Source: Acidobacteriota bacterium
GTDB lineage: Bacteria; Acidobacteriota; Thermoanaerobaculia; Thermoanaerobaculales; Thermoanaerobaculaceae
Length of the DNA stretch: 64,000 bases
Direction of reading: 5' to 3'
Assembly: GCA_003158745.1 (NCBI GenBank)
Contig: PMLC01000101.1
Location: 1 to 64,000, forward strand
Under the pieces are notes generated by a model. The model had not been told where the DNA came from. It saw nothing but the letters and a program-made list of their open reading frames with translations, and ran no database searches. A program made the translations under genes and the position numbers. Position 1 is the first letter of the stretch; each line of letters begins with the position of its first letter. Below are positions 1-39,100 of the stretch, piece after piece.

Positions 1-113
1 GCAGTTTCGACGGCGCCGCTGCCAGCCAGCTTGTTCCCCTGCTGCGTGAACTGCGCTGCCGCTGCGTGCGCAAGGAACAACATTCCGAGGACTGCACTTA
101 CATGCCGTGCCAT
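1..113 (-). CDS. Partial secreted repeat protein, N-terminus only (tandem paralog of the next gene)
   Basis: The reverse strand from ATG at 113 gives 37 codons before the window edge. The first 29 residues (MARHVSAVLGMLFLAHAAAA, a signal peptide ending near AAAAQ, then FTQQGNKL) match the start of the gene at 160-2043, and its upstream sequence with the GGAGGAGA ribosome site is also copied. It therefore begins a second copy of that FG-GAP-like secreted protein. Only 46 bases separate its start from the stop of the intact copy, so it is probably co-transcribed downstream of it. The rest lies outside the window. Confidence 0.85.
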   Translation of the reverse strand, partial: MARHVSAVLGMLFLAHAAAAQFTQQGNKLAGSGAVET

Positions 114-159
114 TGTCTCCTCCTCTCGCCGCTCACAAGCGCAACCATCGCAGCCGCTT

Positions 160-2043
160 CTACCGCTGCATGGCGACCGTGGTCGGGTCGTTGGTGATGT
201 TGTCGATCACCGAGGCAAAGGCGAACACCCCCGATCCCGTCTGCACCGTGATCGTGGCGTACCCACGGTCCATCGCCGTCTGCCCTGCCTTGCTCTTGAA
301 CGGTTGCGTCTCCTGCGCCCACAGCCCCGCCGCCAACGACACCGTGTAGTTGGCCAGCTTCGTCCCCGCACCGTTGAAAAGCTCCACCAGCACCGTCGCG
401 CTCCCCGTCCCCGTGTTGACCACCCCGATGTTGCACCGGTACGAGGCGTTCTCGACAAGTCCCGCGAGGTACGCGCTCGACCCCACCGCAAGTCCATCGC
501 CGGTGACCACCGCTGGGTAGTCCTGCCCCTGCGTGCCGTTGGGGTAGCAGCTCGCCGTGGACGAGACCTCGTTGTAGGTGCGCGCCGTGACCTTGAGCGG
601 CTGGTCGGAGAGAACCTCGAGCGCTCCCGAGTCGCTTCCATTGAGCTGCCCGACCACATCCGTGAGGATCGACTGCGTCGCAGCCGGCACGTACGTCGTG
701 TTGCTCACAACGCCGCCGCTGCCGTAGAACTCGATCTGTGCGTTGGCCTTCACCGTGCCTGGGTTGAGCAGGCCGAGGTCGCTCCGCCACTGGCTGTTGT
801 TCTTGCCGGCGTTGTGGCTCGCCACCGGCACCCAGACGACGTAGGCGGGCACCGAGAAGATCCACGCGGCGCCGGCACCTGAGTTGTCGTCCCACCCGCC
901 GACGATGGCGGTGGTGGCGTCCGCCGAGATCGCCACCGACTGACCCTGGTAGGCGCGCCCAACCTGACCCGTGCCGACCAGCTTGCTGCCCTGCTGCGAC
1001 CACACCCCGAGGCTCCGCGTGAAGATCCACGCCGCGCCGATCGGGGCGTCCTCGGGCCCTCCAATGACGGCGGTGTTCCCATCCGCCGAGATCGCCACCG
1101 CCATGCCCTGAGAGGCACTCGAGCCGGCGCCCGTGCCGACGAGCTTGCCGCCTTCCTGGAACCACCCGAAGCGGCTGCGCGTGAACACCCACGCGGCGCC
1201 GACAGAGGAGTCGTCGTCGGGCCCGCCGACGACGACGGTGTTCCCATCCGCCGAGATCGACACCGCCCTGCCCTGCTGGGCTGCCCCGGCAGCGCCTGTC
1301 CCTATCAGCTTACTCCCCTGCTGCGACCAGACCCCACCGCTGCGCGTGTACAACCACGCGGCACCGACAGAGGAGTTGTCGCCGTACCCACCGACGACGG
1401 CGGTATTACCGTCCGCCGAGATTGCCACCGATTGGCCCTGCAAAACGGAGGTCCCGACTGCGCCCGTGCCGACAAGCTTGCCACCCTGCTGCGACCACGC
1501 CCCCCCGCTGCGGGTAAACACCCACGCCGCGCCGAGGCCGGATTGGTCGTGGGACCCGCCAACGATGGCGGTGTTGCCATCAGCCGAGATCGCCACCGCG
1601 GTGCCCAGTTCGGCGCTGCCCGCGCCGACCAGCTTACTCCCCTGCTGAGACCACACCCCCCCGGCGCGCGTGTACACCAGCGCGGCGCCGGCATAGGAGT
1701 TGTCGCCGGGCGCTCCGACGATGGCGGTGGTCCCATCCGCGGAAATCGCCACCGAGGCGCCCTGCCCGGCGTTCCCGACGGCGCCTGTGCCGACCAGCTT
1801 GTTGCCCTGCTGCGTCCACGCCCCGCCGGTGCGAGCGAAAACCCACGCGGCACCGACCTGCGAGTTGTCAGCCCACCCGCCTACGATGGCGGTGTTCCCG
1901 TCCGCCGAGATCGCCACCGACCCCTGATTGGCAGCCCCGACGGCGCCCGTGCCGACCAGCTTGTTCCCCTGCTGCGTGAATTGCGCCGCCGCTGCATGCG
2001 CAAGGAACAACATTCCGAGGACTGCACTTACATGCCGTGCCAT
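160..2043 (-). CDS. Secreted seven-repeat FG-GAP-like beta-propeller with IWxPV C-terminal domain
   Basis: 627 residues with a signal peptide (1-20). Residues about 21-400 hold seven tandem units of about 50-55 residues, each built as W-S/T-QQG-x-KLVGTGAVG followed by VAISADGNTAIVGG and GAAWVFTR, the look of FG-GAP/integrin-type or Kelch-like blades; seven blades would close one propeller. The last ~220 residues form a separate domain beginning VWVPVASH, with two similar lobes (RSDLGLLN and RCNIGVVN), that recurs elsewhere in this window at 35642-39100 and as a remnant at 25058. The start ATG follows GGAGGAGAGA. No enzyme motif is visible; adhesion or surface display is inference. It is followed directly by a tandem paralog. 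Confidence 0.85.
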   Translation of the reverse strand: MARHVSAVLGMLFLAHAAAAQFTQQGNKLVGTGAVGAANQGSVAISADGNTAIVGGWADNSQVGAAWVFARTGGAWTQQGNKLVGTGAVGNAGQGASVAISADGTTAIVGAPGDNSYAGAALVYTRAGGVWSQQGSKLVGAGSAELGTAVAISADGNTAIVGGSHDQSGLGAAWVFTRSGGAWSQQGGKLVGTGAVGTSVLQGQSVAISADGNTAVVGGYGDNSSVGAAWLYTRSGGVWSQQGSKLIGTGAAGAAQQGRAVSISADGNTVVVGGPDDDSSVGAAWVFTRSRFGWFQEGGKLVGTGAGSSASQGMAVAISADGNTAVIGGPEDAPIGAAWIFTRSLGVWSQQGSKLVGTGQVGRAYQGQSVAISADATTAIVGGWDDNSGAGAAWIFSVPAYVVWVPVASHNAGKNNSQWRSDLGLLNPGTVKANAQIEFYGSGGVVSNTTYVPAATQSILTDVVGQLNGSDSGALEVLSDQPLKVTARTYNEVSSTASCYPNGTQGQDYPAVVTGDGLAVGSSAYLAGLVENASYRCNIGVVNTGTGSATVLVELFNGAGTKLANYTVSLAAGLWAQETQPFKSKAGQTAMDRGYATITVQTGSGVFAFASVIDNITNDPTTVAMQR

Positions 2044-2428
2044 TCTCTCCTCCTCTCGCCGCTCACCACCGGATTAGTTGGTATAACCATGCGACACTCG
2101 CACAGGAATGTCAAGATCTGACCTGCAAATGAGAAACCGTCCGGGCGGCAATGCCGTTGGGAGCGTCCGGGCTCGTGGTGCCTGTGTCGCCGGCCCGAGC
2201 GGATCTCCCGCCGCAAGCCGGCGTGGCCTTTCTCCTGGGGGCAGATAGTTCCTAAGGCACTTCCTATCCGCTACACCTTCGAGGCAGAGCGGGTAGTTTC
2301 TACCTGAGTGGTGGCTTCGCTCCTGGGTACAAAGTGCGCTTCCGGGTGAGGGGCCGGAGGCCTACTCTGGAAACGCGTTCGAGATCCAATTGGCAGCTCA
2401 CTGACGAACTCGAAGGGAGAGAGAGACT
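2044..2428. other. Intergenic region between divergent genes
   Basis: Besides the reverse promoter at 2086-2114 and the ribosome site GGAGGAGA next to 2043, I see no coding sequence. The forward small gene at 2429 must have its promoter here, but I cannot choose a convincing -35/-10 pair. Confidence 0.5.
2086..2114 (-). promoter_or_regulatory. Putative sigma70 promoter for the tandem repeat-protein pair
   Basis: On the reverse strand a perfect TTGACA (2109-2114) is followed after 17 bases by CATGGT (2086-2091), which matches the -10 consensus in only three positions. It lies about 45 bases upstream of the start codon at 2043. The second copy (start at 113) has no room for its own promoter, so this one may serve both genes. 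Confidence 0.4.
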
Positions 2429-2515
2429 ATGACGCTGATCCTCTTGATCGTTGTGTTGGTTCTTCTCTTTGGCGGAGGTGGTGGCTACTACTACAGCAGA
2501 CGGCGACGTCTGTAG
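2429..2515 (+). CDS. 28-residue membrane peptide with Gly5-Tyr3-Arg tail
   Basis: The ATG at 2429 opens a 28-codon frame: MTLILLIVVLVLLF, then five glycines, three tyrosines, Ser, four arginines and Leu, ending in TAG. It is preceded by GAAGGGAGAGAGA at good spacing and followed by a strong hairpin terminator at 2587, so it forms a complete transcription unit. The hydrophobic 14-mer followed by arginines predicts a single short membrane segment with the basic end in the cytoplasm. Tiny proteins of this form (hydrophobic stretch, glycine run, YY) occur in many proteobacterial and acidobacterial genomes without known function; DUF3309-type peptides are a loose analogue. Confidence 0.7.
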   Translation: MTLILLIVVLVLLFGGGGGYYYSRRRRL

Positions 2516-2586
2516 GGCGTTGCCCTGCACCTCACAACAACTTGGTCCGTTCCGAAACACAGCCGGCGGATGACCTGCCTGCCGAC

Positions 2587-2631
2587 GGCCAGAGGCGAAG
2601 CGAGCTTTCCATCGCTTCGCCGCTGGCCTTT
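2587..2631 (+). terminator. Intrinsic-terminator-like hairpin
   Basis: The arms GGCGAAGCGA (2594-2603) and TCGCTTCGCC (2612-2621) pair perfectly. After a symmetric 2-base internal loop they are extended by GGCCA (2587-2591) with TGGCC (2624-2628). TTT follows. The hairpin sits about 70 bases after the small peptide gene and before the YggT-like gene. Confidence 0.6.
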
Positions 2632-2708
2632 GCAAGCGCCGATACGGTGCGATCGCTCGAGCACCCGGAACATGCTCTCGAGCCCAGGGTTCAACACGGG
2701 AGGATGCG

Positions 2709-3224
2709 ATGGAAGACAACAAACTGACCGCCGACGAAGCCCGCCGTGTGGCTCAACACGAGTCGATGAAGTCGCAGGTCGAGCGGGATGTGAATGCCGA
2801 CATCGCCGAGCGTGCCGAGCATACGACCGGCGCCGAAGCGCACGAGATGGACCAGGTCGCCGGACGGTTCCGCGGTAAGGCCATCGGCGAGGTCGTCGGA
2901 ACGGATCGCGAAGTCAGACGTGCGCGCGTCCTCGCGCGCATTTCGCAAATCATCGATTATCTCTTCTACGTCGTCTACACATTGCTCGCGATTCGACTCG
3001 TGCTCGCGTTGATTGCAGCTCAATCAAGCAACGGGTTCGTGCAACTGATTCGAACCGTGACCGATCCTTTCTACTCCCTGTTCCGCGGGATCGTCGCAAG
3101 CCCATCGGCAGGTGGCTTCACCCTGGTCTTGCCGATCGTGATTGCGATCATCGTCTATGCGCTGCTCCACGCGGGCATCACCCGGCTGCTGCGCTTGATC
3201 GCACACCGCAGGACCGAGATCTAG
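2709..3224 (+). CDS. YggT family-like inner-membrane protein
   Basis: 171 residues; the ATG follows GGGAGGATGCG. Residues 1-75 are hydrophilic and highly charged, predicted cytoplasmic. Two or three membrane segments follow: about 80-105 (IIDYLFYVVYTLLAIRLVLA), a re-entrant stretch with the YggT-like signature TDPFYSLFRGIV (about 118-130), and about 140-165. YggT proteins (PF02325) are small membrane proteins of poorly defined role in osmotic stress and cell-division neighbourhoods. The long charged N-terminal extension is not part of the usual ~90-residue family member. Confidence 0.75.
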   Translation: MEDNKLTADEARRVAQHESMKSQVERDVNADIAERAEHTTGAEAHEMDQVAGRFRGKAIGEVVGTDREVRRARVLARISQIIDYLFYVVYTLLAIRLVLALIAAQSSNGFVQLIRTVTDPFYSLFRGIVASPSAGGFTLVLPIVIAIIVYALLHAGITRLLRLIAHRRTEI

Positions 3225-3389
3225 GAGCCTCTCCGAGGCGCCCCTACGGCCGCGGCTCTCTCGGCGACATTCCGCCCCCTCGCTGCACACCGCGGCGGTC
3301 TGGCCGTTTCACGGAACTGGTTCGACCCCCCAGGGGCCTCGAAGTGACAGAGATTCCCCTACGGCAAACGGTGCAAGGAATCCCCTCCG

Positions 3390-5570
3390 TCAGCGGTGGA
3401 GCTTCCGTCGCACGCGCAACGGCGTCTTGCCCGAAGAGGGGTGGGTCGCGTACACGCCGGCGCCGTAGCTGCCCGCGAGCAGCAGCGGCTGATCCTCATT
3501 GCTGATGGCCAGGGAGTAGACAAGGGGGTAGAAGATCGCACCCGAGTAATCCTGCCACGTCTCGCCGCCGTCAATCGAGCGAAGGACACCAAACCCCTCG
3601 CTGCCCGCGTAGACCACACTCGAGTCGCGCGGGTCGCGGACGAGACACTTGACAAAGCCGATATCCGATAGCTTCTTCTCCCAGGTCGTGCCGCCGTCGA
3701 TGGACTTGTAGATGTTGCCGCTCCAGAACCCCGCGCCAACGAGGATCTCGCTGCTGTTGCCGGGCATCACCGAGATCGCCTCGACGAAGTTCTCGTCCGC
3801 GAGGCCGCTCGATTGCCAGTGCTCACCGCCGTCGGTGGTGCGCAGGATGCCGCCGCCATACTGCGTCCCTGCCCACACCGTCCCGTCGTCGTTTGGATCG
3901 ATGGCGACCGCCAACACGGGGTTGAGGTAGCCACCGAAGAGAGGCAGCCCCTCATTCTTCTGCTCCCACGTGGTACCGCCATCGAGGCTGCGGTAGATGC
4001 CGTTCCCGAACAACGACCCGACGAAGTAGACCGACTGGCTGGCGCCACGCGCGGCCGTAACGACCAGCGGATCGGAGACCGCCGTGACCTCGCTGAAGGT
4101 CGTGCCGCGATCGGCGGAGCGATAGAGACCGAGATCAGTGGCCACGGTAACCACTTGGGAGTTGCGCGGGTCCACCACGATCGAGTAGACCTCTCCGAAA
4201 TTGAAGGCACTCAACGAAGATCCGCAAAGCGCTTGCGTCCAGCTCTGCCCGCCGTCGTGGCTGGCGAAGATGAAGCCGGTGCCGGTGCCCGCGTAGATCG
4301 CGCGCGGGTCGTGCGGGTCGAGGGCAACGCTTTGGACCTCGATCGCGGTGATCCCCTGCGAGACCTCCGACCAGGTCTTCCCGAGGTCCTGCGACTTCAT
4401 GACGCCGCCGGGGCTCGTGTAAGCGTTGTCGCGCGCGGCGAAAATGGTGTTCGGCTCGCCGGGACTGAGGCCTACATCGATGACTGCCAAGTTCCCTTCT
4501 GTCCAGTCGACCCCCCCATCCGTGCTCGTGTTGAAACCACCCGTACCCGCGATCGCGAAGAGGACATCCGGCTTCGTGGGATGAAAGTAGAGGCGCGACG
4601 ACATGAACCCGAGGAACTCGTAGCCCGTCGACCGCTGGACCCACGTCCCGGAGTCGAAACTATAGAACTGCCCGTAGATGACGCCGGTCAGCCGGTCCGC
4701 GTGATAGGGATCGAACGCCAGAGCCTCGATCTCCTCGAGCGAGTCGATCGACCCGGGCATGAACGGCACGCCGCCGTTGATCGCCGTCCAGGTTTCGCCG
4801 CCGTCGGTCGAGTGGAACGCGCCGTCAAGCTCGGTGCCGGCCGCAAGCTCGGCAGGCCGAGCGGGATTCAGGGCCAGGGCAAAGACGCCGTTGGTGTAGG
4901 GGTATCCTTGGTCGTAGCGGGGGATGCCCGCGTCCTTCTGCTGCCAGGTGGCGCCCCCGTCCACCGACTTGAAGACGGCGCCTATGGAGAAGGCGACCCC
5001 TCCCGCGAGCCCGGCGTAGAGAGTTCCGGCGTGGCCTGGGTCGATGGCGATGTTGAAAACGACCATGGAGGCCGGGAGGCCGGTGCCGGTCGGCGCCCAG
5101 GTCGCACCGGCGTCGATCGACTTCCAGACGCCGTCGAAGTCGGTGCCGGCCCATAGCGTGCTCGAATTTGTCGGATCGATGCGGAGGGTGCGAATCGCCG
5201 TGATGGTCAGCCCCATGCGGGCCGGCTGCCACGATGCTCCGCCATCGGTCGTCTTGAACACGCCCGCATCGCGCGTGCCGACATAGGCGACCTGCGCGTT
5301 GCCCGGGTCCACGGCAATCGAGGTCATCTCGCCGCCGAAGAGTGGGAGCGAGAGCCATTCGGGCCCACCGGAAGCTTCAGCAGCGGGGAGCGGCGATGCC
5401 GTGGTCGGAGCGAACGCCACGGATGCCCCCGATCGGCCTCGGCATACGCGGGCCGGCCCCACGCCGGACGCGAGCGTCGGGCTGCTTAGACTGACCAGCG
5501 CCATTGCGAACACCGGCGAGACAGCGGTCAGCGCTCGGCTCAAGGTACGACTGCACGCTACCTTCGACAT
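3390..5570 (-). CDS. Secreted Asp-box (BNR/sortilin-like) beta-propeller protein
   Basis: 726 residues from ATG 5570, chosen because GAGGTGG lies just upstream and a clean signal peptide follows (MSKVACSRTL to LASG). Upstream in-frame TTG 5612 and ATG 5591 are alternatives. The mature protein has about eleven Asp-box motifs of the form S/T-x-D-x-G-x-T/S-W (TTDGGASW, SIDAGATW, SVDGGATW, STDGGETW, SQDLGKTW, SHDGGQSW, SLDGGTTW and others), spaced about 50-70 residues. This pattern is shared by BNR repeats, VPS10/sortilin ten-bladed propellers and xyloglucanase-like proteins. No sialidase catalytic arginines or glycoside hydrolase acids are evident, so a binding role is as likely as enzymatic activity. 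Confidence 0.8.
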   Translation of the reverse strand: MSKVACSRTLSRALTAVSPVFAMALVSLSSPTLASGVGPARVCRGRSGASVAFAPTTASPLPAAEASGGPEWLSLPLFGGEMTSIAVDPGNAQVAYVGTRDAGVFKTTDGGASWQPARMGLTITAIRTLRIDPTNSSTLWAGTDFDGVWKSIDAGATWAPTGTGLPASMVVFNIAIDPGHAGTLYAGLAGGVAFSIGAVFKSVDGGATWQQKDAGIPRYDQGYPYTNGVFALALNPARPAELAAGTELDGAFHSTDGGETWTAINGGVPFMPGSIDSLEEIEALAFDPYHADRLTGVIYGQFYSFDSGTWVQRSTGYEFLGFMSSRLYFHPTKPDVLFAIAGTGGFNTSTDGGVDWTEGNLAVIDVGLSPGEPNTIFAARDNAYTSPGGVMKSQDLGKTWSEVSQGITAIEVQSVALDPHDPRAIYAGTGTGFIFASHDGGQSWTQALCGSSLSAFNFGEVYSIVVDPRNSQVVTVATDLGLYRSADRGTTFSEVTAVSDPLVVTAARGASQSVYFVGSLFGNGIYRSLDGGTTWEQKNEGLPLFGGYLNPVLAVAIDPNDDGTVWAGTQYGGGILRTTDGGEHWQSSGLADENFVEAISVMPGNSSEILVGAGFWSGNIYKSIDGGTTWEKKLSDIGFVKCLVRDPRDSSVVYAGSEGFGVLRSIDGGETWQDYSGAIFYPLVYSLAISNEDQPLLLAGSYGAGVYATHPSSGKTPLRVRRKLHR

Positions 5571-24987: not shown

Positions 24988-25056
24988 GGGACCGCGTGGT
25001 TCGAGGTTGAAGGCGGTGGTCTTGAAGGCGGCCATCTGGTTGCGCAGGAGCGGATC
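24988..25056 (-). pseudogene. Remnant of an SLH repeat 3-prime end
   Basis: The reverse strand reads PLLRNQMAAFKTTAFNLEPR and then GP. It aligns with the end of the intact SLH arrays (TLNRDQMAVFITKGFNLNLY, then GP) at the positions L, R, QMA, F, T, FNL and GP. No reading frame of useful length surrounds it, so it is a fossil of a third SLH-protein gene upstream of the M14 operon. Confidence 0.55.
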
Positions 25057-25057
25057 C

Positions 25058-25236
25058 GCCGGGGAGTGGGCGCAGGAGACGCAACCGTTCCAAAGCCAGG
25101 CCAGGCAGACGACGATGGACCGTGGGTGGGCCAAGATCACGGCACAGGCGGGACGGCGGTGTTCGGGTTCGCCTCGGTGATCGACATCTTCACTGACGAT
25201 CCGGCCACGGTGACCATGCAGTGGCAGCGGCTGAAC
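25058..25236 (+). pseudogene. Truncated, frameshifted remnant of an IWxPV-domain C-terminus
   Basis: The forward strand first reads GEWAQETQPFQSQARQTTMD and RGWAKITAQAG. After a shift near 25150 it continues in the next frame as VFGFASVIDIFTDDPATVTM, then QWQR. This matches the last ~60 residues of the protein at 160-2043 (LWAQETQPFKSKAGQTAMDR and FASVIDNITNDPTTVAMQR). There is no upstream part, so it is a broken 3-prime end lying head to head with the SLH remnant. Confidence 0.8.
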
Positions 25237-25333
25237 CCTTGTGGGCGACTCCGCAGGCGCCCACGTCCCGCACACCTGCAGCGGTCCACTAACAGCCGCC
25301 GGAGTCTCGCCGTCGCCGGGTCGCGTCAGCTCC

Positions 25334-26689
25334 TCACGGGCAGGTCGTGGCGAGGAACGCAGTTCCCGTGTAGTTGCCGAAGCAGTTCACGGTCCCACCA
25401 CCGAAGCTCGTCGTGCCGACGAGCTTTGAGGCGCCCACGGTGACCGCGAATCCCGACCCGTTGTTGAGCCAGTTCGTCGCTCCCGTGATGTTGCAGTTGC
25501 TGATGTCCGCGGACAGTCCGGACCCAGCAGTGTCGACGCCGTACCCCTGCGAGCTGAGGAAATCTCCGAGCAAGGTTGCGATGAGGTCGTGGGCGTAGAC
25601 CGCAGCGCCTGGTCCATGCGTGTAGACCTCGCTGTTGCGCAGGTCGAGGGCACCGCCTCCCCCGATGGCGTGGATGCCCCACTGAACAGCACCGTCGTAG
25701 ACGTAGAAACGCGAGTTGCTGATCGCCGGCGAGGCTCCGTTGCCGAAGAAGCCGTTGCTTGCACCCGAAGAGTTGTTCGAACCGTAGACGTTAACGCGGA
25801 CGCCGTCGAGACGCGCCTCGTCGGTGGAGCTGGCCGCCGCGAGGCCGAAGTTCAAGTTCGCCCCGTGAACGGTCAGCTCGCAGTCGACCAGCGAGAATGA
25901 GGTGTTGGTGTCGGCATAAACCCCGTACGCGGTCCCGGTCACGTTGGAGGGGTTTGACGCGGTGATTGTCACGTGCTCGAGAGCGACCTCGCTCGCCTGC
26001 GAGGAAAGGTCGACCGCGATCTCGTAGCTGTTGCCACCCGAGTTGTTGACCGTGAGGCGGCTGAGCTTGCCGTGGTCCCCCATGATCACCGTGCCGTGCC
26101 AGAAGTTCGAGAAGCCGATCGCCGTGATCACCGTAATGTCCCGGCCCGCACCTTCGAGGGCGGTGCGGGTGGGCAGCGTGAGCGAGCCCGAGCCGAGATC
26201 GTAGATGCCGGGTCCCAGCCGGATCAGCCACGGATTGCTCGCCGACGGCGCCTCTGACCCCGTGCTCGGGATCGCCGCCACCATCGAGAGCAGCTCGGTG
26301 CCCGAGTTGACATCGGAGCTGGCTTCGGCGGCCGGGTGGTGAAAGACGAGCACCGTGTGCGGCGGCCAGTTCGATGTCCCTCGGATTGCCTTCTCGATGA
26401 AGACCGCCATCTGGTCGCGGGTGACGGGCGTGCCAGGGCAATAGTTGCCGCCACCGCAGCCGGCAGTGATGCCGTCCAGACCGAACTGCTCGATCCAGGG
26501 GTCGAACCCCGTCGTGCACGTGATGTCGGCGAACGGCACCCCAGGCACGCACGCCGGCGGCGTGTAGACCGACAGAGTCGAGGCCGCCAGACCCTGTTCG
26601 ACTGCGACCTGCTGTGCTGTTGCCGGCACGACGCCGACCATCGCCAGGCACACCGCACCCACGCCGACGAACCGTGGCCGACCGATCAT
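25334..26689 (-). CDS. Secreted right-handed beta-helix protein with one N-terminal SLH repeat
   Basis: 451 residues from ATG 26689, preceded by AAGGAGG. Signal peptide to about residue 25 (VCLAMVGVVPATAQ). A single SLH unit at about 45-100 (FADITCTTGFDPWIEQFGLD, ITAGCGGGNYCPGTPVTRDQ, MAVFIEKAI) differs from its neighbours in lying at the N-terminus. Residues about 140-451 form a pectate-lyase-like parallel beta-helix with repeated short strands and Asn ladders (LSRLTVNNSGGNSYEIAVDL, VALEHVTITASNPSNVTG, ISNSRFYVYDGAVQWGIHAI). The family includes NosD-like and polysaccharide-degrading proteins; no lyase catalytic residues can be assigned, so binding or structural use is equally possible. Confidence 0.82.
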   Translation of the reverse strand: MIGRPRFVGVGAVCLAMVGVVPATAQQVAVEQGLAASTLSVYTPPACVPGVPFADITCTTGFDPWIEQFGLDGITAGCGGGNYCPGTPVTRDQMAVFIEKAIRGTSNWPPHTVLVFHHPAAEASSDVNSGTELLSMVAAIPSTGSEAPSASNPWLIRLGPGIYDLGSGSLTLPTRTALEGAGRDITVITAIGFSNFWHGTVIMGDHGKLSRLTVNNSGGNSYEIAVDLSSQASEVALEHVTITASNPSNVTGTAYGVYADTNTSFSLVDCELTVHGANLNFGLAAASSTDEARLDGVRVNVYGSNNSSGASNGFFGNGASPAISNSRFYVYDGAVQWGIHAIGGGGALDLRNSEVYTHGPGAAVYAHDLIATLLGDFLSSQGYGVDTAGSGLSADISNCNITGATNWLNNGSGFAVTVGASKLVGTTSFGGGTVNCFGNYTGTAFLATTCP

Positions 26690-27202
26690 GGGAAGCCTCC
26701 TTGCAATCTGCCCGGACACACCGGACTTTTCCTGCCGTCACCCCCCAATCGGCGGCGCCTCTGGGAATTGTTTATGCCCCGATTCTCTGCCTGGGCCCCC
26801 CAGCTGTCAAGACGAAAACTGACGCGCCCGGCACGCAGGCCACTTACAAGTCGACGAGGAGTTTCCGCGTGCTTTTTGTCTGCTGCGGTTGTGACTATTG
26901 GTCTTCCCTGAACCAAGTTAGGCGCCAGCCCGTTGTGAGAGCGTGGACGACTTGGTCCGCCACCGACAAATGGCCCACGTAGAGCTTGAGAGCAAATCCT
27001 CGTTCTTCCCTTTGTGGCAGGCGCTCGCGGCCAAGCAGGGAGAGCTCCATGCGGGGGCGCGGAGTGGCGCCGAATCGCCATCGTCGATCGCGACCGTGAC
27101 GGTTTGGTCCGGTGGTGGTCCTCCTTAGTGAACGGTACCGTTTGGCCCCAGTTGCGCGTAAGGAGTAAACTACATTTGATGTATTCACCGGAAAGGAAAC
27201 CC
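26690..27202. other. Divergent intergenic region with palindromes near its right end
   Basis: No coding sequence is convincing. The segment 26780-26930 is less GC-rich than its surroundings. The right end holds the palindromes at 27131 and 27171 and the GGAAAGGAAACCC ribosome site of the HTH gene. Confidence 0.5.
27131..27183. promoter_or_regulatory. Palindromes upstream of the HTH gene (candidate autoregulatory operators)
   Basis: A perfect 12-base palindrome AACGGTACCGTT (27131-27142) and an inverted repeat TACAT-TTG-ATGTA (27171-27183) lie 20-72 bases before the ATG at 27203. A weak TTGCGC/17/TTTGAT promoter overlaps the second. Operators of XRE-type regulators are usually such short palindromes over their own promoter. 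Confidence 0.4.
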
Positions 27203-31639: not shown

Positions 31640-32977
31640 GTGATGATGCACGGTCGCAGGAGCCTGATCGGAGTTCTGCTCGTCGTGGGGGCCGCGCGAT
31701 GCGGGCCTGCGGACGCCCAGGTCACCGGCGAGCAGAGTGACGCCGCACCGTGGGGCTTGCACGCTCAGCTCACCGTGGTCGGCCAGGGGCACGGTGGTTT
31801 CCCCGCCGAGTACTCGGGCGCCAACAGCCTTTCATCTCAGCGCGAGATCAAGGCATCGGTCACGAGCTCGTTGTTCCTCGGGGTGCGCCTGTGGCGAGGC
31901 GCCGAGCTGTATGTCGTCCCCGAGGTGGCGGGCGGCAAGGCGTTGAGCGGCGCGGTCGGCGTGGCCGGGTTCCCGAACGGCGAGATCGAACGGGTCAGCG
32001 ATCCGCAGCTCAAGCTCTACGTCAGCCGCGCATTCCTCCGCCAGACATGGGGCCTCGACGACAAGAAGGAGACGGTGGAAGACGACCTACTCCAGCTTCC
32101 CGGTGACCAGGCAGTCTCGCGCCTGGTCCTCACGGCCGGCAAGATCGCGGTGACCGACATCTTCGACGACAACGCCTACAGCCACGACCCGCGCACGCAG
32201 TTCCTCAACTGGTCGCTGATGGACGGGGCGAGTTGGGACTACCCGGCCGACACTCGCGGCTACACATGGGGCATAGCGTTCGCGTTGAACCGGCCCACAT
32301 GGGCGCTGCGACTGGGCTCCTTCATGGTCCCGCTCGAGGCCAACGCGATGGCGCTCGATCACAACGTCAGCCGCAACCACGGGGATGTTGCCGAACTCGA
32401 GGTCCGCCAGCGACTCCTCGGACCGACCGGCAAGGTCAAGCTGCTCGCGTACCAGAACCACGCCCGCATGGGGACCTACAGCCTCGCTCTGGCAGAGGCG
32501 GGCCCCCTTCCGCCGGACGTCACGACGACGCGGCGGGACGGCACGCTCAAGTACGGCCTCGGCATCAACCTCGAGCAGCCCCTCTCGGACGCGGTTGGCG
32601 CGTTTGCGCGCTGGGGTTGGAACGACGGCCGGACCGAGACCTGGATGTTCACCGAGATCGACACGACCGCCTCGGCGGGTATCCAGATTTCCGGCACGTT
32701 GTGGGATCGCGCCCATGACACCGCCGGCATCGCGTTCGTGAGCAACGGGCTCGCACCCGAGCATCGCGACTATCTGGCAGCGGGAGGGTACGGCTTCATC
32801 ATCGGGGACGGCGCCCTCAACTACGGCCGTGAGCGGATTGTCGAGGCTTACTACGATTTCAAGATCATCAAGGGGATCGTCGTCGCTCCGGACTTCCAGC
32901 ACGTCACCAACCCCGCGTACAACCGCGACCGCGGCCCCGTCTCTATCTGGAGCGTGCGCTTCCACTGGCAGATGTGA
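31640..32977 (+). CDS. OprB-family carbohydrate-selective porin
   Basis: 445 residues with a signal peptide (RRSLIGVLLVVGAARCGPAD then AQ). OprB (PF04966) features are visible through the length: WGLHAQLTVVGQGHGGFPAE, SLSSQREIKASVTSSLFLGV, LTAGKIAVTDIFDDNAYSHD, FLNWSLMDGASWDYPADTRG, YTWGIAFAL, GLGINLEQPLSDAVGAFARW, DTAGIAFVSNGLAPEHRDYL and a final strand ending SIWSVRFHWQM with an aromatic penultimate residue. These porins admit glucose and other sugars across the outer membrane. It stands alone between tatA and a reverse HAD gene. Confidence 0.9.
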   Translation: MMMHGRRSLIGVLLVVGAARCGPADAQVTGEQSDAAPWGLHAQLTVVGQGHGGFPAEYSGANSLSSQREIKASVTSSLFLGVRLWRGAELYVVPEVAGGKALSGAVGVAGFPNGEIERVSDPQLKLYVSRAFLRQTWGLDDKKETVEDDLLQLPGDQAVSRLVLTAGKIAVTDIFDDNAYSHDPRTQFLNWSLMDGASWDYPADTRGYTWGIAFALNRPTWALRLGSFMVPLEANAMALDHNVSRNHGDVAELEVRQRLLGPTGKVKLLAYQNHARMGTYSLALAEAGPLPPDVTTTRRDGTLKYGLGINLEQPLSDAVGAFARWGWNDGRTETWMFTEIDTTASAGIQISGTLWDRAHDTAGIAFVSNGLAPEHRDYLAAGGYGFIIGDGALNYGRERIVEAYYDFKIIKGIVVAPDFQHVTNPAYNRDRGPVSIWSVRFHWQM

Positions 32978-35368: not shown

Positions 35369-35537
35369 TCAGCACATGCCTGTGTTCCTTATCGGCGGCG
35401 CGGAGCGCTGGCATTCGCGCCGGCAATCATGGCCGCCAACGCGCCAAGAACGTCCCTGTGTGTAGCCGAAACTCCATGGTGTAAAATCAGCAACTTGCGG
35501 CCTACGGCACACGAGCCCGCCGAGGCCACATTACGGT

Positions 35538-35641: not shown

Positions 35642-38600
35642 GTGGGTGCAGGTGCAAAGGTCGGGTTGACGCGGATGATCTCGATGACGGTCATGTTGGG
35701 CATGGCGGCCCTGGCGGGCGCCGCCGACAGCGGGGACAGAGTCGGCGCGATGAGGGCGCTCGCAGCCAGGATCGATCGGGCGCAGGCGGCCGAAGCGGTC
35801 GTGGCGCCGTCGGTCCTCGCCAGTGGTGGCGGTTTCGCCCGCGCGTATGGGGGGGCCAAGGCCGACTTTGGGTATTTCATGGCACAGGTCGGCAACGACT
35901 ATGTTCTCTACGGCACGACACAGTCGTTCGGGCTCGGCATGTTCAACCCCTGGCTTACCGAGTTGGACGGGAACGGCAACCTCGTCTTCCAACAGGTGTG
36001 GGGGACGGCGCAGACCGAAACCGGCACGATCAATCCGACGCCCGACGGCGGGTTCTTCGTCAGCCTGGTCTCCCAGCCCACACCGGGACAGACGGTCGTG
36101 CAGCTCGTCAAGCTCAACAGCTCGTTGACAAGCGTCTGGCAGAAGCAGTACGGCACCGGCAGCGAGGGCCTGAAATCGGCCGTCGTGCTCAAGGACAACA
36201 GCTTCTTGATCGAGGGTTCGACGGTTCAGATCTCTGGCTCGACGATCACCTATGTCGGCACGTTGATCAAGACGGACTCCTCCGGCAACATCCTCTGGCA
36301 GAAGCAGTCCAGCTCATCGCAGCCGGTCACCCTGTATTTCGGCCAGCTCTCCGACGGGAGCTACATCGGCGTGGGCACAACCTCCGCGGCGTCCAACCCC
36401 GCCGACACCGACATCCTCGTCGTCAAGCTCGATTCCAGCGGCAACGTCACGTGGCAGAAGAGCTACGGCCCTTCCGCCGGGAGTTACGCGTACTCGGCCC
36501 TCCCGATCAGCGGCGGCTACCTGATCGCCGGTTCGACGACAGCCTTCGGGGCCGGCAAGTCCGACGTATGGCTCATCCAGATCGACACCTCGGGCAACGT
36601 GGTGAAGCAGGAGACGATCGGCGGCGCCGGCGACGACGTCGCGGTCCTCCAAGCCGTGACGGGTGGGTACCTGCTTTCCGGGTACACGGACTCCTCCGGC
36701 GCGGGCTCCTCGGACGGTTGGATGGCCTTCCTCGACTCCAATCTCAACGTGACCTCGTCGAAGACCTACGGCGGGTCCGGAGCCGACGAGGTGTTTGCCT
36801 TGCCCGATTCCACTGGCGGCTTCCTGCTGATGGGCACGACCTCCTCTTTCGGCGGCGGCGGGAAGAACGCTTGGGTGATCAAGACCGACGCCTCGGGCAA
36901 TCCGGTCTGGCAGAACGCCTACGGCGGCACGGGCATCGAGTCCGGCGAAATCGCCAGGCTTTCCGGCGGCGGGCTGATGCTGAGTGGATCGACCACGTCA
37001 TGGGGCGCGGGCGGCGACATGTTGGCGGCGCTTCTCGACGCCAACGGCCAACTCAACGGCTGTGAGCTGGTTCACCCCACGAGCGTGACCCCGGAGAACT
37101 TCTCGCCCACGGTGACTGCGACGAATGTGACGCCCGTGACCACGACCATCGCGGAGACGAACGCGACCATCACGGCCTCGACAATCTCGCTGAGCCCCAT
37201 CACCACGACTGCCACCGTCACCGATATCTGCGGCACCACCAGTGCGCTCACCGCCACGGCGAGCGCCAACGCGACGTCGGGGACCCCGCCGCTTTCCGTG
37301 ACCTTCACCGGCTCGGCCGCCGGCGGCACCTCACCGTACAGCTTCGACTGGAACTTCGGCGACGGCAGCGCCCACTCCAGTCAGCAGAATCCGACCCACA
37401 GTTACACCTCGGACGGCTCCTACAACGTCGTGCTCAAGGTCACCGACGCGACCGCAACAACAGCCACCGATAGCCACCTCTCTATCACTGTCTCGGCCGC
37501 CACCTGCACGCTGACCTGCCAGGCCTCCGTCCCCACCACCGGCACGGTGGACGTTGCGGTCAGCTTCACCTCCTCGGCCACCGCCTCCAACTGCGGCGGA
37601 ACGATCAACTACCTATGGAGCTTTGGCGACGGCCAGACGTCGACCGCGCAGAATCCGACCCACACCTACGCCCAGGACCAGACCTACGCCTGGACCCTCG
37701 TCGTAACCTCTGGCACTGGTAGTTGCAACAAGAACGGGAGCATCACGATCTCATCCTCCGCCGCCCAGCAAATCTGGATTCCGGTTGGGAGTCATGGCTC
37801 GGGTCTGAACAACAGCCAGTACCGGAGCGACCTCGGACTGCTCAACACCGGGACGGTCAGTGCCGACGTGCAGATCAAGGGGTACATCGGCGGCAGCTTG
37901 TTCACCAAGAACGTGGTGGTGGCGGCGGGAGCGCAGTCGATCCTCACCGATATCGTGCAACAGCTCGGGGCGAGCGGTTCGGGGGCGATCGAGATGATCT
38001 CCGACCAGCCGTTGAAGGTCACGACGCGGACGTACGACCAGTCATCGACGGGGACGTACGGGCAGGACTACTTGGCGGCGACGACGAGTCAAGGTCTCTC
38101 AGCGGGGCAGAGCGCCTGGCTGGGGGAGTTGACCGAGGATGCGGCCTACCGGACCAACATCGGGGTGACGAACACGGGAAGCGGGAACGCATCGGTCACG
38201 GTATCGTTGTACAACGCCACAGGGCATCTGCTGGCCAGTTACCAGGTGAGCTTGAGTGCGGGACAGTGGCAGCAGGTGACACAGCCGTTCAAGAACAAGG
38301 CGGCGCAGACGGCGATGGCGGCGGGATACGCAAAGATCGCGGTCAACTCGGGATCCGGGGTGCTGGCCTATGCATCGCTGATCGACAACGCAACCAACGA
38401 CCCGACGACGGTCAACCCGCTCGTCGCGGACTCGGGGACTGCCGTGTGGATTCCGGTAGGGAGTCATGCCTCGGGTCTGAACAACAGCCAGTACCGGAGC
38501 GATCTCGGGCTTCTCAACACCGGCTCGGTCAGCGCCAACGTGCAGATCAAGGGGTACATCGGCAGCAGCGTGTTCACCAAGAACGTGGTGGTGGCGGCGG

Positions 38601-39100
38601 GAGCGCAGTCGATCCTTACCGATATCGTGCAGCAGCTCGGGGCGAGCGGTTCGGGGGCGATCGAGGTGACCTCCAACGAGCCTCTGAAGGTCACGACGCG
38701 GACGTACGACCAGTCGTCGACGGGGACGTACGGGCAGGACTACCTGGCGGCGACGACGAGTCAAGGTCTCTCGGCGGGGCAGAGCGCCTGGCTGGGGGAG
38801 TTGACCGAGGACGCGGCCTACCGGACCAACATCGGGCTGACGAACACGGGAAGCGGGAACGCATCGGTCACGGTGTCGTTGTACGACGCCACGGGGCATC
38901 TGCTGACCAGTTACCAGGTGAGCTTGAGTGCGGGGCAGTGGCAGCAGGTGACACAGCCGTTCAGGAACAAGGCGGCGCAGACGGCGATGGCGGCGGGATA
39001 CGCAATGGTCAGGATCAACTCGGGATCCGGTGTGCTGGCCTACGCCTCCCTGCTCGACAACGTAACCAACGACCCGACCACGATCAACCCGCTACGGTGA
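35642..39100 (+). CDS. Large secreted protein: propeller, two PKD domains and two IWxPV domains
   Basis: 1152 residues from GTG 35642, fixed by GGAGGTGG just upstream; an ATG at 35675 is possible. Signal peptide ends near ALAGAADSG. Residues about 60-470 are Kelch/delta-60-like repeats (GGSGADEVFALPDSTGGFLL, WVIKTDASGNPVWQ). A Thr-rich linker leads into two PKD domains (FDWNFGDGSAH, YLWSFGDGQTS; both with the HTYxxDxxY end). The C-terminal ~440 residues are two copies of the IWxPV domain (IWIPVGSHGSGLNNSQYRSD, then RTNIGVTNTGSGNASVTVSL), nearly identical at DNA level. No enzyme motif is seen; adhesion or matrix function is inferred from PKD and repeat content. Confidence 0.88.
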   Translation: MGAGAKVGLTRMISMTVMLGMAALAGAADSGDRVGAMRALAARIDRAQAAEAVVAPSVLASGGGFARAYGGAKADFGYFMAQVGNDYVLYGTTQSFGLGMFNPWLTELDGNGNLVFQQVWGTAQTETGTINPTPDGGFFVSLVSQPTPGQTVVQLVKLNSSLTSVWQKQYGTGSEGLKSAVVLKDNSFLIEGSTVQISGSTITYVGTLIKTDSSGNILWQKQSSSSQPVTLYFGQLSDGSYIGVGTTSAASNPADTDILVVKLDSSGNVTWQKSYGPSAGSYAYSALPISGGYLIAGSTTAFGAGKSDVWLIQIDTSGNVVKQETIGGAGDDVAVLQAVTGGYLLSGYTDSSGAGSSDGWMAFLDSNLNVTSSKTYGGSGADEVFALPDSTGGFLLMGTTSSFGGGGKNAWVIKTDASGNPVWQNAYGGTGIESGEIARLSGGGLMLSGSTTSWGAGGDMLAALLDANGQLNGCELVHPTSVTPENFSPTVTATNVTPVTTTIAETNATITASTISLSPITTTATVTDICGTTSALTATASANATSGTPPLSVTFTGSAAGGTSPYSFDWNFGDGSAHSSQQNPTHSYTSDGSYNVVLKVTDATATTATDSHLSITVSAATCTLTCQASVPTTGTVDVAVSFTSSATASNCGGTINYLWSFGDGQTSTAQNPTHTYAQDQTYAWTLVVTSGTGSCNKNGSITISSSAAQQIWIPVGSHGSGLNNSQYRSDLGLLNTGTVSADVQIKGYIGGSLFTKNVVVAAGAQSILTDIVQQLGASGSGAIEMISDQPLKVTTRTYDQSSTGTYGQDYLAATTSQGLSAGQSAWLGELTEDAAYRTNIGVTNTGSGNASVTVSLYNATGHLLASYQVSLSAGQWQQVTQPFKNKAAQTAMAAGYAKIAVNSGSGVLAYASLIDNATNDPTTVNPLVADSGTAVWIPVGSHASGLNNSQYRSDLGLLNTGSVSANVQIKGYIGSSVFTKNVVVAAGAQSILTDIVQQLGASGSGAIEVTSNEPLKVTTRTYDQSSTGTYGQDYLAATTSQGLSAGQSAWLGELTEDAAYRTNIGLTNTGSGNASVTVSLYDATGHLLTSYQVSLSAGQWQQVTQPFRNKAAQTAMAAGYAMVRINSGSGVLAYASLLDNVTNDPTTINPLR
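37771..38442 (+). repeat. Direct repeat, unit 1: IWxPV domain coding DNA
   Basis: 672-base unit whose sequence recurs at the same offset of 672 in 38443-39097. Differences are mostly scattered single bases. Unit 1 ends in a short linker that joins it to the second unit. Confidence 0.85.
38443..39097 (+). repeat. Direct repeat, unit 2: IWxPV domain coding DNA
   Basis: Second copy of the 37771-38442 unit, ending at the stop codon. A change from Asp-Gln-Pro to Asn-Glu-Pro in SDQPLKV and Asn to Asp in LYNATG are among the few protein differences. Confidence 0.85.

Follow-up and report, generated by a model that had tools for sequence, protein, structure and literature searches.

The ASRAH superfamily was named by De Souza, Iyer and Aravind in 2009 and includes the Anabaena sensory rhodopsin transducer (ASRT; 2II7 in the PDB) and TM1070 of Thermotoga (1NC7) (PMC2739507). 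Its traits are its fold, a well-conserved Trp where strand 1 starts and a nearly absolute Asn that closes strand 2, and sugar binding has been predicted for it from gene context (PMC2739507). The solo proteins ASRT and TM1070 are tetramers, secreted members of the superfamily form dyads or tetrads, and the 1,2-ethanediol ligand of TM1070 adjoins residues H25 and C29 (PMC2739507). Here we describe a domain of ~215 residues from a stretch of 64,000 nucleotides of an Acidobacteriota bacterium (contig PMLC01000101.1), referred to below as the window. Three intact copies are present in the window, within two proteins that have signal peptides, and each unit has the ASRT fold and is almost certainly a member of the ASRAH superfamily.

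A dyad of ASRAH domains

The two halves of the domain are homologous and come from an internal duplication, as the original prediction, made from the sequence alone, had supposed. Compared with each other, they give BLASTP E values down to 6e-7 and, profile against profile, a probability of 96.6% (E 5.6e-10). Structure prediction had also been proposed. Given 64 domain copies, drawn from the window and public acidobacterial genomes, AlphaFold2 models the whole domain at a predicted local distance difference test (pLDDT) score of 97.5 and a predicted template modelling (pTM) score of 0.91, as two beta-sandwich lobes of eight strands apiece; lobe A modelled by itself has a pLDDT of 93.5. Every ~215-residue unit is a dyad of lobes, and tandem units are tetrads.

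The identity of the fold comes from Foldseek comparisons with the PDB. The top match of lobe A is TM1070 (1NC7), with a template modelling (TM) score of 0.78-0.80 and a probability of 1.00, followed by ASRT (2II7, 2II8, 2II9 and 2IIA) and then, as plausible matches, by carbohydrate-binding modules of Ruminococcus flavefaciens (5AOS, 5AOT and 5FU2-4; TM ~0.5). Since the best matches of lobe A are TM1070 and ASRT, the domain is read as two ASRAH domains forming a dyad. For the full model with both lobes, 1nc7_D was again a match (probability 1.00, TM 0.65 by target); many GH2/beta-galactosidase entries ranked higher in that search and were rejected because of a root-mean-square deviation of 15-19 and a TM of ~0.2. 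At the profile level, lobe A was compared by hhalign with an ASRT profile that combined 1NC7 and 2II7 with four acidobacterial ASRTs. This gave 74.8% (E 2.6e-5), or 68.2% in another comparison, and the reversed, column-shuffled and PKD controls were all at or below 5.4%.

The original prediction knew of no named family for the domain. This stands for the window copies at the level of Pfam and NCBIfam, where scans with full proteins and with 15 and 64 domain copies matched no family above cut-off; ASRT (PF07100) reached 24.6 bits on a window protein, 0.4 bit short of its cut-off of 25. It does not stand at the level of the fold, where the domain is kin to ASRT and ASRAH. By member count the best Pfam relation is DUF5719 (PF18986), with an E value of at most 0.01 in eight of the 64 members. 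Its gathering score of 26.2 is unmet by the window copies and was passed by one of ten relatives scanned singly (L103, 27.1 bits), in which the match is partial, covering positions 61-143 of the 319 in the model. DUF5719 is a mainly actinobacterial family and is possibly the third of the ASRAH families in the 2009 paper. Weak matches to FxLYD, GbpA_D3, Slr4, Big and Por_Secre_tail were rejected, and a PDB sequence search with single copy and profile queries gave no significant match. In the literature on the superfamily only the 2009 paper (PMC2739507) was relevant, and no paper turned up for DUF5719.

Ordinary ASRT orthologs (PF07100 E ~1e-55) are also encoded in the same class. They occur beside many secreted dyads in three genomes (G067, G042 and G192; loci L126-L128), and one of them is close to Anabaena ASRT (E 6e-55).

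Conserved residues and a putative ligand face

The Asn that closes strand 2 in the superfamily (N26) occurs at 94-95% in lobe A; its lobe B equivalent, N135, is kept in only 49-53% and is otherwise mostly E, D or S. The profile alignment pairs H25 of TM1070 with R19 of lobe A and C29 with G23; carried over to lobe B through the lobe repeat, the equivalent residues are R128 and G132. R128 (95-96% conserved) and N130 (86-97%) are among the best-conserved residues of the domain, and the same residues are conserved in N-terminal and C-terminal copies. R128 and N130 are placed on alternate residues of the strand, like H25 and C29 in TM1070. This placement suggests that a TM1070-type ligand face may have been kept in the domain with a changed chemistry.

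Genes and domain copies in the window

The features of the window that concern the domain are the following.

35642..39100, + strand: tandem-copy gene, ~1152 residues in translation, with a GTG start at 35642
37256..37750, + strand: two PKD domains preceding the domain copies (Pfam PKD_4/PKD; PKD_4 3.3e-28)
37772..38428, + strand: domain copy 1 (lobe A ~37772-38086, lobe B ~38087-38428)
38444..39097, + strand: domain copy 2 (lobe A ~38444-38758, lobe B ~38759-39097)
160..2043, - strand: single-copy gene, 627 residues in translation, with a signal peptide, FG-GAP repeats and one domain
163..837, - strand: domain copy 3, 59% identical to copy 1 and 55% identical to copy 2
25055..25221, + strand: decayed domain remnant, the last ~57 residues, with a frameshift near 25150

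The tandem-copy protein consists of a signal peptide, a beta-rich repetitive head, the two PKD domains and the two domain copies. Its open frame extends upstream to an ATG at 35429, and numbered in the frame from there the PKD domains are residues 610-682 and 701-774; the start at 35642 is preferred because the signal-peptide-like MISMTVMLGMAALAGAA comes next. In the single-copy protein, a Pfam scan finds FG-GAP_2 in six stretches (2.3e-15). Copies 2 and 3 both end four residues ahead of the stop.

With tblastn, each copy recovers the other copies in the window at an E value of 1e-74 or better, and the motifs W(I/V)PV(A/G)SH, RSDLGLLN and R(T/C)NIG(V/L)xNTG are found as described in the original prediction. 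Copies 1 and 2 have a protein identity of 91% and a DNA identity of 93.4%, which points to a recent duplication. A fossil copy had also been announced at 25058, and the remnant is real (tblastn E 4.7e-15), although it is limited to the last ~57 residues, spread over two frames. At the DNA level the remnant matches the 3' end of the single-copy gene (160-2043) with 82% identity. A second decayed remnant, in the same genome (L046; contig C77, 1534-1702), covers the same last ~55 residues, and the two together suggest repeated loss of domain paralogs.

Other repeats and neighbors were noted. A direct repeat of 129 bp (93.8% identity) links window positions 8-136, at the start of the contig, to 1938-2066, in the 5' part of the 160-2043 gene, as if another FG-GAP/signal-peptide gene starts just outside the window. 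Positions 25318-25697 are 83% identical in DNA to positions 355-733 of L033, elsewhere in the same genome, both being near a domain copy or remnant; the stretch in the window overlaps a minus-strand frame (~25330-26740) that resembles a right-handed beta-helix protein. A carbohydrate-selective porin (OprB, E 4.8e-41) is encoded at 31640-32977, 2.7 kb upstream of the tandem-copy gene, and no operon link between these two genes was shown.

Distribution in the Acidobacteriota

A profile of the 64 copies finds 35 matches, remnants included, in the genome to which the window belongs. From 84,980 species genomes, a pattern-based scan drew 47 loci, all of them titled Acidobacteriota or its classes and many of them Thermoanaerobaculia. 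The domain is present in 67 of the 297 genomes of a phylum sample and in 50 of the 61 genomes of a class sample, often in 15 to at least 49 copies. Plasmid, phage and viral collections yielded no relatives, and so spread via plasmids, phages or viral contigs was rejected.

Nearly all sampled genomes of one genus of the class (g10, family code f7) are without the domain though near-complete, whereas most other families of the class have at least 15 copies; the contrast amounts to a sharp loss or absence.

Position of the domain within proteins

The domain is a mobile module of secreted proteins. The unrelated heads that the original prediction had described are indeed found with it, and they include FG-GAP, PKD, Ig, BACON, Flg_new_2, M6 peptidase, beta-lactamase, subtilase, LVIVD, LamG and others. 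Among 120 frames whose 5' end is complete, a crude test recognised a signal-peptide-like start in 112, and secretion is inferred from this test.

The constant C-terminal position that had been claimed is observed for every copy in the window but not for the family. In the own genome, 11 of 25 proteins have the domain at the C-terminus, three have it near the C-terminus, five are almost domain-only (one of these being a truncated C-terminal type) and six have N-terminal copies with 94-499 residues after the domain. This count is free of the bias that affects the 47 public loci, which were picked by a motif from the very end of the domain itself and so favor the C-terminal type. Among 57 proteins of the class sample, picked by score, 27 are C-terminal, 17 not C-terminal, six stand-alone, three near the C-terminus and four cut off. 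The N-terminal copies lie ahead of cupredoxin-like, CARDB, PKD and collagen-like regions.

A FastTree tree of 131 domains, which has several long branches outside the clade of the window copies, requires at least 12 switches between C-terminal and N-terminal or stand-alone positions. In the supported clade (95*) that holds the window copies, all 27 rows are C-terminal, whether a single copy or the first or second of a C-terminal tandem, and the heads before them are FG-GAP, PKD, Ig, M6 peptidase or beta-lactamase. The sister clade of this subclade has N-terminal copies (L170, L175, L181 and L188). From the tree and the position counts, the C-terminal rule is right for the subclade and wrong for the family.

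In four other loci (L163, L191, L195 and L100, the last at 1391-3883), N-terminal copies are followed by long Gly/Ser-rich repeats (VAHDGTLxGDGTxxxPLG), which resemble phage-tail or trimeric surface proteins.

Tests for a sorting signal

The original prediction had suggested a sorting module, perhaps accompanied by a sortase. Beyond the C-terminal domain the tails are a few residues long; in the tails examined there is no LPxTG and no PEP-CTERM-like motif, and a hydrophobic stretch near the C-terminal end occurs in one of 87. The tail as a signal was also rejected, since its [AT]Mx(R/K/W) ending partly recurs after internal tandem copies (PMTR, NMK, GMH) and therefore belongs to the domain. 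A sortase is found in 28 of the 61 class genomes, all 28 of which have the domain, and in none of the 11 domain-free genomes. However, 18 class genomes with at least 14 domain copies have no sortase, and so it is unnecessary. The own genome has a sortase (PF04203) and one marginal exosortase match, at 25.8 bits versus 25.7 and only with neighboring matches. SprA gave no match in this genome, where no control gave a signal either, and TIGR04183, the C-terminal domain of the type IX secretion system (T9SS), matched the domain only at E 0.44. A sorting role for the family is largely refuted by these results.

Proposed function and alternatives

We predict that the domain is an ASRAH-dyad accessory module of secreted proteins, which may bind a ligand or glycan non-covalently and thereby hold the attached heads on a surface or polysaccharide. 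That glycan or ligand binding is the function of the domain is a more tentative proposal, inherited from the ASRAH superfamily, whose own sugar binding is a prediction. The computations show that the two ASRAH-type eight-stranded beta-sandwiches of the dyad arose by internal duplication, that the tandem of 35642-39100 is a tetrad, and that the mobile, independently folding module has multiplied within one Acidobacteriota class until a genome holds tens of copies. In each protein, Sec export would come first and folding of the module afterwards; the module would then bind a small molecule or glycan through the sheet face equivalent to the TM1070 ligand site. Once bound, it would keep its head, whether a propeller, an Ig/PKD stalk or a hydrolase, on the surface or on extracellular polysaccharide in the manner of a carbohydrate-binding module.

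Several points speak against this prediction. The profile similarity of lobe A to ASRT is by itself no more than moderate, and the argument is carried by the structure. The strand-1 Trp, present in all three intact window copies (the W of WIPV/WVPV), occurs in only 28 of the 64 aligned domains of the wider set, in which a near-invariant aromatic residue at the start of strand 2 takes the place of a family-wide strand-1 Trp. The conserved Arg, Asp and Asn could merely join the two lobes. To our knowledge, no ASRAH ligand is known except the 1,2-ethanediol in 1NC7, and a link of the domain to glycan-acting genes was not established.

Because ASRT is a tetramer, a structural alternative is a real one: the dyad or tetrad would recreate an ASRT-like tetramer and would stiffen or multimerise secreted proteins, with no ligand at all. 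The tetrameric solo proteins and the secreted dyads and tetrads of the superfamily (PMC2739507) agree with such a spacer or oligomerisation module, as do the tandem copies in 5 of the 25 own-genome proteins and 20 of the 57 class-sample proteins and the adjoining PKD, Ig and similar stalk domains, which are beta-sandwiches too. We still consider it unlikely. Single dyads and stand-alone dyads directly after the signal peptide (L044, L174 and L196) are common, so that a stalk role is not needed, and the best-conserved polar residues map to the face of the TM1070 ligand pocket.

Non-covalent attachment to a surface is possible above all for the C-terminal-only subclade with the window copies, whose dyads would fix diverse heads to one polysaccharide of the producer. 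The uniform C-terminal position in that subclade, behind five kinds of head, would fit such an anchor; the N-terminal copies of the sister clade and the identical conserved residues of N- and C-terminal copies would not, and we regard the idea as doubtful. Finally, a C-terminal sorting signal handled by a dedicated machine (sortase, exosortase/PEP-CTERM or T9SS-like) is highly improbable, as the C-terminal position of the window copies and the sortase and exosortase matches of the own genome are outweighed by the numerous N-terminal and stand-alone copies and by the tests above.

Comparison with known systems

With ASRAH proteins (2II7, 1NC7; PF07100), the domain that we predict to be a ligand-binding accessory module shares the eight-stranded beta-sandwich, the strand-2-end Asn, a strand-7 Arg (SRLD against SRTY) and the secreted dyads and tetrads. 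It differs from ASRT and TM1070, which are solo and cytosolic, in being secreted and duplicated, and in having (W/F)R(S/T)DLxLxN and (F/Y)RTNIGxxN instead of their SHExxCxxN ligand signature. It is also joined to many head types and lies just under the Pfam cut-off of ASRT; with H25/C29 replaced by R/G in the alignment, it is not an ASRT ortholog. The DUF5719 model is matched only in part, with the window copies under its cut-off. The actinobacterial lipoprotein ASRAH family differs in another way, as no lipobox Cys follows the signal peptide of either window protein. The 2009 paper already covered the superfamily, along with its secreted dyads and predicted function, and the domain is therefore an unnamed, greatly expanded family of a known kind.

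A very common unnamed domain of the Acidobacteriota is thus assigned to a fold superfamily that is already known and is given a predicted ligand face, and dozens of hypothetical secreted proteins per genome gain a testable function. The ASRAH superfamily is in turn widened to a mobile, massively expanded extracellular module. Similar in use are the carbohydrate-binding modules of Ruminococcus flavefaciens, which are likewise accessory modules on secreted proteins; the analogy is one of fold and use only, and no sequence kinship was found. The T9SS C-terminal domain (TIGR04183) and the sortase and PEP-CTERM signals share with one subclade a C-terminal position behind unrelated secreted heads, but the domain described here is two-lobed, ~215 residues long, not obligatorily C-terminal and without a processing motif. 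It is a rather speculative thought that the C-terminal-only subclade is an unnamed surface-retention system of Thermoanaerobaculia-type Acidobacteriota, in which a two- or four-lobed ASRAH module would attach tens of different secreted heads to one shared glycan of the cell surface. If the subclade does bind one self-glycan, this would be a new mode of protein display on Gram-negative cells, and the non-covalent Gram-negative counterpart of the S-layer-homology and cell-wall-binding modules.

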